Shown here: piece by piece, positions 277 to 62,094 of the stretch
How positions within the stretch are numbered: the first letter of the stretch is position 1
Layout of the letters: every line of letters begins with the position of its first letter
Position numbers and translations under genes: made by a program
Notes under the pieces: model-generated
Told to the model about the DNA's origin: nothing
The model's input: the letters and a program-made list of their open reading frames with translations, nothing else
Database searches by the model: none
Assembly: GCA_032252755.1 (NCBI GenBank)
Contig: JAVUPY010000052.1
Coordinates: 62,001 to 126,000 of the forward strand
Reading direction: 5' to 3'
Length of the DNA stretch: 64,000 nt
DNA from: Terriglobia bacterium
Lineage (GTDB): Bacteria > Acidobacteriota > Terriglobia > Terriglobales > Acidobacteriaceae

Positions 277-1398
277 TCAGCCCTCTAGTGAGAGGGTTAG
301 GGAGTCCAGGGAGAGGGAGCGCAGCAAGTTGCGGCGCATTCCGGATTGAACATCGGAGATGCGGTCGGTGGCGGTGGTGATCCAGTCGAAACTGGCGGAT
401 TGCGCCAACTTCCGCAGCTCCGGTTCGATGTCCACGTTACGGAGCATATCCGGCGTGTTCGAGCGAAGGAAAAGCAGGTCTTCCAGCAGGCCATAAAGAG
501 CGGCTATCAGAGCATCGATCTTTTGTTTACCCTCGGCTCCGGCGCGATAGGCTTCGGTGGCCTTGAACAGCGCCGAGTGGTCGTTGGCGTCGATGGCGGT
601 CTTGAGCATAGTGAGGGCATCGTTGCGTGCGGCGAGATAGACGTTCAGGTCGAAGCTGCGGGCGCGCCCTATGGCGCCGCCGCTGAGCCGGGCTACCAGT
701 TGGCGCTGCTTCGCGTTCCAATCGGGGCGTTGTGAAAGGTCGTTTTCGATTTCGGCCAGAGGCAATGGCGCGAGATGCAGGGTCACGCAGCGCGAGCGGA
801 TGGTAGGGAGCAGCGAGGAGGCATTTTCGGCGAGGAGGAAGATCGTCGCAAATTCCGGCGGCTCTTCCAAGACTTTCAATAAGGCGTTAGCCGCCTCTTT
901 CATGAACGCCGAGTCGGTGAAGATGTAGACCTTGTGGCGTCCTTCGCTTGGCCGGAAATAGATGGAATGAATCAGGTGCCGGACCTGGTCGACCTTGATC
1001 ATCATCTGCGGCGGATCGGGCGGAATGATGAGCACGTCGGGGAAGGTCTGGACGAGGATTCTGGTTTCTTTCTTGTCAGTTTCTCGAAGGCTGTCGCGGA
1101 CCTCTACGGCTTCGGCGCAACGAGATTCGAGATCGTCGGCCTGAGCGATGCGAACGCAATTGGAGCACCTTCCGCAGAAATCAGGCAGGTCGTCGGCTGG
1201 AACCGCGGCGCTGAATAATCCGCCCGGTTCGGGGCGGTCGAGGCAGTTCATCGCCTTTGCAACCATTTGCGCGAGAGTGTATTTGCCCGAGCCTCGCGTG
1301 CCGGTGAGGATCACCGCATGCGGGAAGCGGTCGTGGGCGAGCATTTCGCGGAGGCGAAGGACGATGTCGGCGTTGCCGTGGAAATCGGAAAAGGGCAA
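277..1398 (-). CDS. holB: DNA polymerase III subunit delta prime
   Basis: This is the clamp-loader subunit that, with tau/gamma and delta, opens the sliding clamp for chromosome replication. The 373-residue protein has a Walker A motif, TGTRGSGKYT, at about residues 32-41. Cysteines at about 52, 75, 78 and 81 (CGRCSNC) form the family's zinc module. An SRC arginine-finger motif lies near residue 202. A C-terminal helical region completes the usual architecture. The start is a TTG (complement of 1396-1398) preceded by a GAGG five bases upstream. That GAGG lies in a palindromic repeat at 1404-1422. The gene follows tmk on the same strand, a common tmk-holB arrangement. The family call is firm; only the start codon is uncertain. 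Confidence 0.93.
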   Translation of the reverse strand: MPFSDFHGNADIVLRLREMLAHDRFPHAVILTGTRGSGKYTLAQMVAKAMNCLDRPEPGGLFSAAVPADDLPDFCGRCSNCVRIAQADDLESRCAEAVEVRDSLRETDKKETRILVQTFPDVLIIPPDPPQMMIKVDQVRHLIHSIYFRPSEGRHKVYIFTDSAFMKEAANALLKVLEEPPEFATIFLLAENASSLLPTIRSRCVTLHLAPLPLAEIENDLSQRPDWNAKQRQLVARLSGGAIGRARSFDLNVYLAARNDALTMLKTAIDANDHSALFKATEAYRAGAEGKQKIDALIAALYGLLEDLLFLRSNTPDMLRNVDIEPELRKLAQSASFDWITTATDRISDVQSGMRRNLLRSLSLDSLTLSLEG

Positions 1399-1403
1399 AT
1401 GGA

Positions 1404-1507
1404 CCTCAGGGGCTAAAGCCCCGTTTGCTTTTGGGTGATTCTCAATGCAGTCCTAGAGGCTTCTCCACCCGACCACATTCAAAGCGAAGCCTCAAGGCCG
1501 CTGAGGC
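1404..1507. repeat. Pair of inverted GC-rich palindromic repeats
   Basis: The gap between tmk and holB holds two related palindromes in opposite orientation. The first is GGGGCT-AA-AGCCCC at 1409-1422, preceded by CCTCA. The second is GCCTCA-N7-TGAGGC at 1489-1507. Read on the minus strand, the second shares a CCTCAGNGGC core with the first. They could be the ends of a small MITE-like element of about 105 bp. The CCTGAGG of the first copy lies where the holB ribosome-binding site is expected. Confidence 0.55.
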
Positions 1508-1604
1508 AGAATCATTCAAAGTATAGAGCATCATGGTAAAGATCATCGGGGCTGGCGAGGCCCCGGCTCTCGAACCGCCGCCGTCGGGGGGGCCAATCCG
1601 AGGT

Positions 1605-42822: not shown

Positions 42823-42877
42823 GAGGGGTACCCTGCTCTTTGCGCGGATTGTTGGCGCGAAGGACGGGGCCTTTTTG
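42823..42877 (+). repeat. REP-like imperfect palindrome
   Basis: The stretch from GAGGGGTACCC through TTTGCGC-N9-GCGCGAA to GGGGCC forms an imperfect hairpin and is followed by CTTTTTG. It resembles the palindromes at 47036-47069, 50075-50111 and 57786-57825. The T-run makes it a possible terminator for the upstream peptidase gene. Confidence 0.5.
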
Positions 42878-46986: not shown

Positions 46987-47035
46987 GGACACCTATCTTA
47001 CTCCGTCACGGTGTCGCGTCCCACATGTACGGGTG

Positions 47036-47069
47036 CTCCATCCAACGCCCTTTTGGCGTTAGGGTGCGG
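47036..47069. repeat. REP-like imperfect palindrome between citF and glcD
   Basis: CTCCATCCAACGCC and GGCGTTAGGGTGCGG form an imperfect stem around CTTTT. The flanking GGGTGCTCCATCC is very similar to GGGTGCCCCATCC at 50069-50081. It lies upstream of glcD and downstream of citF. Confidence 0.6.
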
Positions 47070-47099
47070 CAGGTCAATCTTCTGCGGACGTCAACAACA

Positions 47100-50045: not shown

Positions 50046-50074
50046 AGTTATCTCGTCTTCACCACTGTGGGTGC

Positions 50075-50111
50075 CCCATCCTAACGCGCGTTTTGTGCGC
50101 GTCAGGGTGGG
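50075..50111. repeat. REP-like palindrome between IDH-family gene and citDE
   Basis: CCCATCCTAACGCGC (50075-50089) and GCGCGTCAGGGTGGG (50097-50111) pair over 15 positions with one mismatch and one wobble. It sits in the 85-base gap upstream of the CitD-CitE fusion. It is the clearest member of the palindrome family also seen at 47036-47069 and 57786-57825. Confidence 0.7.
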
Positions 50112-50130
50112 ATAGTTTCCTCGGTTGACC

Positions 50131-56413: not shown

Positions 56414-58993
56414 CTAAAGGTTTCTGACTCTCCGCTCCAGATCCCTCGCGATGCTCTCCGCAGCCGCATTCGCCGGATACTTCACCGGCTCCCCAATCCG
56501 AACCGTGATCGTTCCCTTCCGCGAGAACCGCTGCTTCTTCAGGCGTAGCTCATACAGCCCGTCGATCCGCATCGGCAGCACTGGTAAATCCAGCTTCTGC
56601 GCGAGCAGTCCGACGCCTGATTGGAACGGCTGCATCTCGCCCGTATCCGTCCGGCGACCTTCCGGAAAGACGACGACGCTATACCCCCGATCCACGGCTT
56701 CGCCGGCGAACGCGAAGCTCTCGCGGAACCCGTACTTCTGGAATATCGGAAACACGTTGAACAACGTGACGACGAGCCCGTAGTCGAGTTTCTCGCGAAT
56801 CCGCTGGAACCAGTTCATCTCTTTCGGCGGATGCCGCATAGCGACCAGCAACTCCCCGAGCATCGCCACCGCCAGGCGCGTCCGATACCGCCAAGGTAAG
56901 GCCCACAGCAGGAACCCGATATCCAAATACGCGACGTGATTGGAGATGATCAGCAGCGGCCCCTCGACGCCCTTCAGTTTGTCGCGCGCGATCACGCGCG
57001 GCCAGGTCATCAGCAGCGTCGCCGGCCACGTCACGCCCTGGTACACTAGCGCTCGCAACCACCGCAGCGGCGCCGCCAGCGCCCACGTCGGAAACTCGTA
57101 GCGAGGCCGCTCCTGCGGCGACTCGCGCAGCATCTTCTCGACCTGCGCCACCGTGGTCGCGTTCGAAAACGTCTGCTCGTTCAGCGAGACCTGGTACCGG
57201 TCCTCAATCGCCGACATCAACTCCACGCGATCGATCGAGCTCAAATTCAAATCGCTCTCCAACTTCGCGTCCGGAGCCAGCGCCTCCACCGGCTTCCGTG
57301 TGACCCGCCCAATCAGTTCCGCCAGCGCGCTCTGTGGAGTCTCACCCGTCGGCCCCGCCCCAAACTTCGCCCTTGCATACGCCTCGATCTCACCGATCTT
57401 CGGCTTCTGTGTCGACGTTCTTGGGAAATCCTCATCCGGCCACACCAGCCATCGCCGAATCTGCTGAAACTCCGCGAGCCGCGCATTCGCCGCCGCTACC
57501 GCCTGCTTGCCGTCACTCCCATCCTGCATCAGCAGCACCGCGCAAGGCTCCGCATTTCCCTCTACCGGCAGAGCGACAACAACGCAATCGCGAACCTCCG
57601 GCTGCGCCCGCAGCGCCCCTTCCAAATCCTCCGGATAAACCTTCATCCCCGCCGGCGTAACGATCACGTTCTTTCGCCGGCCCTTGAAATAAAGGTTCCC
57701 CTCGGCATCCAGTTCTCCGAGATCGCCGGTGTGGAACCATCCCTCTTCCCCGCCCACCGGCTCAAACTGTGCCCCGCTCTCGGTTGCCCTACCCTTGTCG
57801 CCGTCTTTAGGCGACAAGGTGGGGCTTTTCGCTGTCCAATACCCCGCCGCCAAATTCGCTCCGCGCACCAGGATCTCGCCGTTCTCGTCGAGCTTCATCT
57901 CCCGTCCCGGCAGCACCTTCCCAATCGATCGCTGCCCGACTTTGAACGGATGATTCAGACTGATCAGCGAAGTCGTTTCGGTCAGACCATATCCCTGCAC
58001 GACGGCATACCCGAGCCGGTTCCAGAACTTCTCCGTATCAGCATCCAGCGCAGCACCGCCCGAGATGAACGCCCAGAACTTCCACCCAAGTTTTCGGTGC
58101 ACATCGCGGAAGCGCCACATGCGCTTCAAGAACTTCTTTCCCTCAGCTTCTGCAAACCGCCGCAGAAACCTTTCCAGTTTCCCTTCCGCCTCGAGATCGC
58201 GTTCGAGTTTCTGGCGCAATGACGCCAACATGCGCGGCACCGCAATCAGAGCCGAAACCTTCTCGTGCTTGATCACCTCCATGATCTCGCCCGGGCTCAG
58301 CGAGTTGTGGAAGACGACCGTCGCCCCGAGCGCCTGCGGGATGAACAGCCCAAGAAACTGTCCGAACACATGGCTCAGCGGAAGCAGATTCAGGAATGCC
58401 AGCGGATGAAACCACTTTTCGTACTTCCGATACTTCGCGATTTCGCGCTCGATCGGCTCCAGGTTCGCCAGCACGTTCCCATGTGAGATCACGACGCCCT
58501 TCGGCTCCGAAGTTGTCCCCGAAGTAAAGACGATCTCCAGCATGTCCTCGCGCCCGATCTCCGGACTCGCATACGGTCCGGAATCGTGCTTCGCCACCCG
58601 CTCGCGCAAATCTTCCATGACGAGCACATCGCGGGTGCCGCACAACCCGGCGATCTCCCTCGCAACCACCATCAGTTTGGCATCGACTTGCTCCGCCACC
58701 CGCATCGCGAAGTCGTCACTCGCCACTCGATCCATTGGAACCGATACCGCGCCACGCAGCACGCAGCCAAAAAAACCCGTCGCCCACTCCGCCGAGTTGT
58801 CCCCCCACAGCACCACGCGATCGCCCTTGGCGACTCCGCGCGCCTCCAATTCGCGAGCGAACTGCCGCGCCGTGCGCAACACCTCGCCATAGCTCCACCG
58901 CTCCGTGCGATAGCCCCGCCGATGCGCATACGCTGGCCCCTCACCCCACGAAGACAGCCCTTCCACCACCGCGACCAGCGACTTACGTTCCAT
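56414..58993 (-). CDS. Acyl ligase - acyl carrier - PlsC acyltransferase fusion
   Basis: An 859-residue three-domain protein. Residues 1 to about 530 are an AMP-forming fatty-acid ligase (VFTSGTTSEPKGVV at 155-168, VVQGYGLTETTSL, WFHTGDLG, GRRKNVIVTPAG). About 555-640 is an acyl carrier domain with the phosphopantetheine serine in LNLSSIDRVELM. About 660-859 is a PlsC-type acyltransferase (ISNHVAYLD and FPEGRRTDTGEMQPFQSG). It could activate a free fatty acid, load it on its own carrier and transfer it to a lipid acceptor, related to Aas but with an extra ACP. A palindromic repeat encodes an extra segment (about 390-403) before the WFHTGDLG motif. Confidence 0.88.
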   Translation of the reverse strand: MERKSLVAVVEGLSSWGEGPAYAHRRGYRTERWSYGEVLRTARQFARELEARGVAKGDRVVLWGDNSAEWATGFFGCVLRGAVSVPMDRVASDDFAMRVAEQVDAKLMVVAREIAGLCGTRDVLVMEDLRERVAKHDSGPYASPEIGREDMLEIVFTSGTTSEPKGVVISHGNVLANLEPIEREIAKYRKYEKWFHPLAFLNLLPLSHVFGQFLGLFIPQALGATVVFHNSLSPGEIMEVIKHEKVSALIAVPRMLASLRQKLERDLEAEGKLERFLRRFAEAEGKKFLKRMWRFRDVHRKLGWKFWAFISGGAALDADTEKFWNRLGYAVVQGYGLTETTSLISLNHPFKVGQRSIGKVLPGREMKLDENGEILVRGANLAAGYWTAKSPTLSPKDGDKGRATESGAQFEPVGGEEGWFHTGDLGELDAEGNLYFKGRRKNVIVTPAGMKVYPEDLEGALRAQPEVRDCVVVALPVEGNAEPCAVLLMQDGSDGKQAVAAANARLAEFQQIRRWLVWPDEDFPRTSTQKPKIGEIEAYARAKFGAGPTGETPQSALAELIGRVTRKPVEALAPDAKLESDLNLSSIDRVELMSAIEDRYQVSLNEQTFSNATTVAQVEKMLRESPQERPRYEFPTWALAAPLRWLRALVYQGVTWPATLLMTWPRVIARDKLKGVEGPLLIISNHVAYLDIGFLLWALPWRYRTRLAVAMLGELLVAMRHPPKEMNWFQRIREKLDYGLVVTLFNVFPIFQKYGFRESFAFAGEAVDRGYSVVVFPEGRRTDTGEMQPFQSGVGLLAQKLDLPVLPMRIDGLYELRLKKQRFSRKGTITVRIGEPVKYPANAAAESIARDLERRVRNL
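57786..57825. repeat. REP-like palindrome inside the acyl-ligase coding region
   Basis: GCCCTACCCTTGTCGCC (57786-57802) pairs with GGCGACAAGGTGGGGC (57810-57825) apart from one bulged base and one wobble. It resembles the intergenic palindromes at 47036-47069 and 50075-50111. It is translated in frame as part of SPTLSPKDGDKGRA. Confidence 0.65.
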
Positions 58994-61339: not shown

Positions 61340-62094
61340 ACGCCCCGGCAAGAATTCGCGCCATCATCGTCGACGACGAAGAACTCTCGCGCGCCGTCCT
61401 TCGCGAACTTGTCACCCCGCACGCCGACGTCGAAATCGTTGCCGAGTGCATCAACGGTTTCGATGCCGTCAAGGCCGTCAACGAACTCCACCCCGACCTC
61501 GTCTTCCTCGACATCCAGATGCCTAAACTCGACGGCTTCGAAGTCCTCGAACTCATCGGCAGTGATCACGTAGTCATCTTCGTCACCGCTTACGATCAGT
61601 ACGCGCTCCGGGCCTTCGAGGTCCACGCCGTCGACTACCTGCTCAAGCCTTTTGGCGCCGAGCGCTTCGAAGCCGCGCTCACGCGCGCCCGCCAGCGTAT
61701 GGGCCAACACCAACCCGTTCCCGCCGATCTGGCAACGGCCGCGCGCGCGCCTGGACAGCACGCCGACCGGATCGTCCTCCGCGACGGCAGCGATGTGCAC
61801 ATCATCCCAATCGCCAAACTCGACTATGCCGAAGCCCAGGACGATTACGTCGCGCTCGCCTCAGAAGGGAAGAAGCGCCTCAAGCAGCAAACCATCTCCA
61901 GCCTCGAGCAGTCGCTCGATCCCGCGCGTTTCCTGCGCATTCACCGCTCCTACATCCTCAACCTCGACCGCCTGAAGAAACTCGAACCCTACGGCAAGGA
62001 CACCCACGTCGCCATCCTCACGGATGGCACCCGCCTGCCGGTTTCGCGCAGCGGCTACTCACGCCTGCGCTCAATCCTGGACGCGAAGTCGTAA
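61336..62094 (+). CDS. LytTR-family response regulator
   Basis: This 252-residue regulator has an N-terminal receiver (LVFLDIQMPKLDGFE with the phospho-acceptor aspartate, KPFGAERFE). The C-terminal LytTR DNA-binding domain has FLRIHRSYILNLDRLKKLEP and TRLPVSRSGYSRLR. Starts with GTG overlapping the kinase stop. LytTR regulators act with LytS-type kinases on envelope or stress genes. Its own operon is a likely target. Confidence 0.93.
   Translation: MNAPARIRAIIVDDEELSRAVLRELVTPHADVEIVAECINGFDAVKAVNELHPDLVFLDIQMPKLDGFEVLELIGSDHVVIFVTAYDQYALRAFEVHAVDYLLKPFGAERFEAALTRARQRMGQHQPVPADLATAARAPGQHADRIVLRDGSDVHIIPIAKLDYAEAQDDYVALASEGKKRLKQQTISSLEQSLDPARFLRIHRSYILNLDRLKKLEPYGKDTHVAILTDGTRLPVSRSGYSRLRSILDAKS

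Follow-up and report, generated by a model that had tools for sequence, protein, structure and literature searches.

Palindromic repeats that lie in frame within unrelated protein genes, and whose encoded peptide is compatible with the host protein, are described for Rickettsia as Rickettsia palindromic elements (RPEs; Ogata et al., 2000, 2002; PMC10969869, PMC3733652) with a length of approximately 150 bp (PMC10969869). GTAG- or CGTC-tagged REPs, in the account given in PMC3733652, are short hairpins that are mostly intergenic, with some located within ORFs, and the GTAG type is associated with RAYTs. The same account includes Y1 transposases from Acidobacteria with flanking inverted repeats (TIRYT), such as Koribacter versatilis ORF1552, and one set of these repeats constitutes a repeated family. 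In TnpA-REP subclass 2.4, a REP is inserted in its own transposase gene (PMC6006769).

A related situation was found in a Terriglobia bacterium of the Acidobacteriaceae (GCA_032252755.1; 5.39 Mb of genome searched). The window, which is the whole stretch of DNA analysed, comprises 64,000 nt (contig JAVUPY010000052.1, forward strand, positions 62,001 to 126,000). It contains a gene for a fusion protein consisting of an AMP-forming acyl ligase, a phosphopantetheine carrier and a PlsC-type acyltransferase (Pfam PF00501, PF00550, PF01553), and a REP-like miniature element, probably mobilised by a RAYT, has very likely inserted into the ligase part of this gene and is tolerated there as a loop peptide. 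The relevant features of the window are as follows.

56414..58993, minus strand: host gene, 859 aa (ORF list; Pfam PF00501, PF00550, PF01553)
57776..57832, minus strand: 57-nt insertion in its best placement, codons 388-406, AKSPTLSPKDGDKGRATES (alignments with 27 and 109 homologues; exact ends approximate)
57782..57831, plus strand: whole element with foot GGTT (family TYGT), hairpin and tail TTTTCG (cmsearch 53.7 bits, E 7.6e-13; borders conserved in 71 copies)
57785..57823, minus strand: codons 391-403, element-encoded peptide PTLSPKDGDKGRA (translation; pLDDT <50 at residues 391-406)
57786..57825, plus strand (canonical orientation of the family): 40-nt palindrome, the hairpin core of the repeat (sequence, folding, family pattern)
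50069..50119, plus strand: weaker copy of the family, where no coding signal is present (28.6 bits, covariance model; codon-usage profile)
42826..42876, plus strand: weak family member between convergent genes, likewise lacking coding signal (22.2 bits, covariance model; ORFs)
47031..47076, plus strand: marginal copy of the family, again where no coding signal is present (15.7 bits, E 0.035, covariance model; codon-usage profile)

The palindrome (GCCCTACCCTTGTCGCCGTCTTTAGGCGACAAGGTGGGGC) is indeed read in frame within the minus-strand ORF, as the original prediction had stated, and its orientation in the gene is antisense to the canonical orientation of the element. It folds stably both as single-stranded DNA (-16.4 kcal/mol, z -4.9) and on the mRNA strand (-27.6 kcal/mol, z -5.7), and none of 200 shuffled sequences equalled either value. 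The hairpin is asymmetric, so that a plain count of symmetric self-complementarity gave no information.

The repeat family and its candidate transposase

The palindrome had also been noted to match intergenic palindromes in layout, and genome-wide searches showed that it belongs to a repeat family. A strict pattern of the stem retrieved the window copy only; the family became apparent with a pattern for the outer stem and then with a covariance model. The strict outer-stem pattern matched 15 times in the genome and its reversed control did not match at all, and the covariance model, built from 21 copies, detected approximately 60 genomic copies at E <= 0.001 and the window copy at E = 7.6e-13 (search of the window). 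On these grounds the palindrome is not a product of chance. A compensatory exchange between C-G and G-C, affecting both sides of one stem pair, occurs in 7 of the 21 copies. Alignment of 71 copies from two genomes by their hairpins revealed conserved T, T/C, G and T upstream and N, G/T, T and T downstream, followed by near-random flanks. Since conservation stops approximately four bases before and four bases after the hairpin, the element is about 48 nt long and consists of a TYGT foot, a GC-rich hairpin of 34-40 nt and an NKTT tail; the foot is degenerate in the window copy (GGTT) and reads GGGT in some relatives. Across 100 genomes of this bacterial family, the model had matches in 60, some of which harbour many copies. 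In two copies (L165, G000:C25:187994-188078; L172, G000:C51:49665-49750), the loop of the hairpin holds a longer insertion, which resembles a second hairpin nested within the first.

Like REPs, the element is a short GC-rich hairpin with many, mostly intergenic copies, and 4 of 62 copies in the window genome are located in the interior of coding sequences. The conserved foot in the 71 aligned copies is TYGT instead of GTAG or GTGG, and the element is therefore REP-like but not a canonical GTAG REP. A further REP hallmark, inverted copies around a RAYT gene (HUH, single Tyr), was found on contig C88. Among the six Y1_Tnp matches in the genome, the gene on this contig (PF01797) encodes the RAYT-like motifs EHVH, WQ and YIHYNP and is flanked by inverted element copies (52 nt, 90% complementary), which are among the highest-scoring in the genome. 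We infer that the element is moved by a RAYT of this kind. The motifs observed here (EHVH, WQ, YIHYNP or YMHRNP, and a downstream SS) do not cleanly match a single TnpA-REP subclass. In genome G202, a RAYT gene (L370, G202:C91:1600-3171, ORF 851-1528, minus strand) carries an in-frame element between the HUH and Y motifs, which recalls the insertion into the own transposase gene known from subclass 2.4 (PMC6006769). The same ORF has a second element copy at its C-terminus.

The original prediction had drawn an analogy to RPEs. This analogy holds for the behaviour of the element; as regards lineage, the evidence favours a REP-like element with a link to a RAYT transposase. Judged by the description of RPEs (PMC10969869, PMC3733652), the likeness would lie in the insertion in frame into unrelated protein genes, mostly in one frame, and in the conserved peptide, whereas the element differs in its length (about 48 nt versus about 150 bp), in the phylum and in the RAYT gene flanked by copies. 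With the intragenic GTAG and CGTC REPs, as they are portrayed in PMC3733652, it shares the short hairpin, the mostly intergenic distribution with some copies in ORFs, and the association with RAYTs (GTAG type), but the foot is TYGT or GGGT rather than GTAG/GTGG or CGTC, and nearly all coding copies use one frame. The TIRYT of Koribacter belong to the same phylum, and there, too, a Y1 transposase gene is bordered by inverted repeats that are members of a repeated family; intragenic copies are not mentioned for that family in the description in PMC3733652 on which this comparison is based. The element family is thus new as set apart by these descriptions, and in-frame palindromes as such are already known from RPEs and intragenic REPs.

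Additional residues in the ligase and in other proteins

In the ligase, the loop between the GEILVRG and TGDL motifs comprises 54 residues, versus 23-45 and most often 35 residues in 109 homologues. None of these homologues, which were searched for a loop of the same length lacking the palindrome, reaches 54 residues, and approximately 19 additional residues are present in the window protein alone. The set of 109 was obtained by adding loci of named Acidobacteriota genomes to 27 usable homologues from relatives, and one locus (L052) was disregarded in the first alignment because of a misread frame. An insertion at residues ~385-415 had been anticipated; the alignments confirm the additional residues and refine their placement to ~388-406, where the extra segment (19 residues, 57 nt) exceeds the 40-nt palindrome. 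Neither an exact empty site nor a target duplication was definable with a closest homologue that is approximately 60% identical, and for the same reason the 57 nt might contain other indels.

The ligase domain as modelled by AlphaFold2 (30 sequences; mean pLDDT 84) has pLDDT values below 50 at residues 391-406, which are situated between predicted strands at 384-387 and 409-411. This fits a floppy, exposed loop formed by the inserted segment and agrees, at the level of a structural prediction, with the proposed tolerance of the palindrome in a surface loop. The ligase carrying the insert presumably still works. In three homologues from other genomes (L099, L101, L139), this loop contains another insertion, which is of the ADERIS-ARISDDQ type and approximately 10 residues long, and the site thus seems generally tolerant.

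PTLSPKD-like segments in other proteins, the search for which had been proposed as a check, were found both in the window genome and in relatives. The four in-protein copies of the window genome reside in the ligase, a radical-SAM protein, a Glycoamylase-domain protein (glucoamylase) and a GH2 mannosidase, and all four are antisense and share one frame that encodes the peptide PTLSPK.GDKGxA. The respective segment of the radical-SAM protein has 70 residues compared with 30-33 in 20 of 21 homologues and 52 in the remaining one, and that of the glucoamylase has 70 compared with 55-60. The GH2 mannosidase is a weaker case, because its loop varies among homologues. A search of 200 genomes of the bacterial family with a profile of the four peptides detected the same peptide in PurL, MurI, an aminotransferase, a GH5-like enzyme and RAYT proteins. 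At the element, PurL has approximately 21 residues more than the best-matching solved PurL (3viu), and solved glutamate racemases align with MurI until just before the element and resume after it. Two further in-frame copies are degenerate and contain an internal indel. One is in an arginyl-tRNA synthetase (L406, G202:C58), which at this point has approximately 24-29 residues more than solved structures, and the other is in a leucyl aminopeptidase (PepA; L398, G210:C131), a weak case without a clear insertion.

Most long ORFs overlapping other copies look like shadow ORFs or are preceded by the element, which then lies before the probable start codon, and these were not counted as coding insertions. 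They include genes that we take, from recognition of their sequences, to encode mannose-6-phosphate isomerase, thiolase, carbamate kinase, ribosomal protein L1 and CheR. Two side observations concern related loci. The radical-SAM homologue of genome G021 (L235) has a different insertion of approximately 21 residues in the loop that holds the element in the window genome. In genome G170, two unrelated ORFs (L366, L367) contain, near their C-terminal part, PTLSPPKAGGDKGGA followed by tandem GGDKGG-type repeats, which seem to be an expanded variant of the element.

Reading frame, synonymous changes and the fate of inserted copies

The reading frame was assessed for 169 copies from five genomes by the codon usage of the flanks and the absence of stops, ignoring the peptide. 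Ten copies were interior-coding. Eight of them lie fully in the PTLSP...DKGxA frame, two partly and none wholly in another frame. The two partial cases are the arginyl-tRNA synthetase, where the shared frame is kept at the start (PTLSPKDGERMGH), and the leucyl aminopeptidase, where it is kept at the end (DKGGAP). All ten copies have three to six of the six frames open. Assuming equal likelihood for all open frames, the product of the open-frame numbers gives a chance of ~6e-6 that the eight intact copies all fall in this given frame, a value to be read in light of a choice of genomes that was partly peptide-driven (three of the four added genomes were picked via matches of the peptide search); for the window genome alone, with three further copies, the chance of a shared frame is about 1 in 60. 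In G021, none of 67 copies is interior-coding, which suggests that most insertions into genes are purged.

Base changes within the element are biased in the same copies. In the stem codons of the eight intact coding copies, pairwise comparison yielded 64 synonymous and 14 nonsynonymous differences, versus 198 and 435 in 22 non-coding copies from four genomes (label permutation p = 3e-4; the pairwise counts are not independent). Two degenerate copies that do not fit the 39-nt core were omitted. Between the window copy and the radical-SAM copy, 4 of 39 bases have changed, and all four changes are synonymous, with 26% of single changes expected to be so. The element peptide is presumably translated and kept.

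These observations are best explained by the following scenario. A copy of the REP-like miniature element would have inserted, antisense to its canonical orientation, in the ligase loop preceding the FHTGDLG motif, with a RAYT-type HUH/Y1 transposase as the likely mobiliser, one such gene in this genome being flanked by inverted copies. Most insertions into genes would be purged, and the survivors within proteins would share one orientation and frame (PTLSPK.GDKGxA), which encodes a hydrophilic stretch rich in Pro, Gly, Asp and Lys that the host protein would accommodate as a disordered loop at its surface. From then on, a copy inside a gene would evolve as coding sequence. A stronger version, which we consider rather unlikely, holds that the element itself has been shaped for translation, so that its antisense frame serves as a portable, well-tolerated loop peptide and coding neutrality or usefulness aids its persistence across genera.

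It is improbable that the element is kept in coding genes as a useful functional module, for example as an mRNA hairpin that acts in regulation or as a peptide that has a function itself. Such a module might account for the single frame, the synonymous-biased divergence and the stable mRNA hairpin, but the hosts are unrelated enzymes, the insertion sites differ, orthologues in relatives do not have the element, and tolerance of one harmless frame would yield an identical pattern. Even less credence is due to a mature protein devoid of the element, through removal at the RNA or protein level or through ribosome bypass: a stable hairpin located exactly at the insertion and the presence of the element in housekeeping enzymes speak in its favour, but every interior copy is open, nearly always in the same frame, and its changes are mostly synonymous, all of which fits translation. 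Least plausible of all, ordinary length variation of a loop that does vary among homologues and bears other insertions in L099, L101 and L139, with the palindrome as a coincidence of codon use, is ruled out by the membership of this stretch in a genome-wide repeat family and by the same peptide in unrelated proteins.

Implications

Tolerated insertion of a REP-like element would extend the phenomenon known from Rickettsia, mobile palindromes becoming parts of proteins, to the Acidobacteriota, and a candidate transposase is encoded in the genome studied here. That coding copies share a frame and diverge mostly by synonymous changes suggests that selection acts on which insertions survive. If the element had indeed been shaped for translation, gene interiors would have been opened as landing sites, helping the family persist across genera. 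Repeats of this type call for caution in sequence analysis, as they can be mistaken for conserved protein motifs. For the organisms that harbour them, they may provide a route to new surface loops in enzymes with housekeeping roles, PurL and MurI among them.
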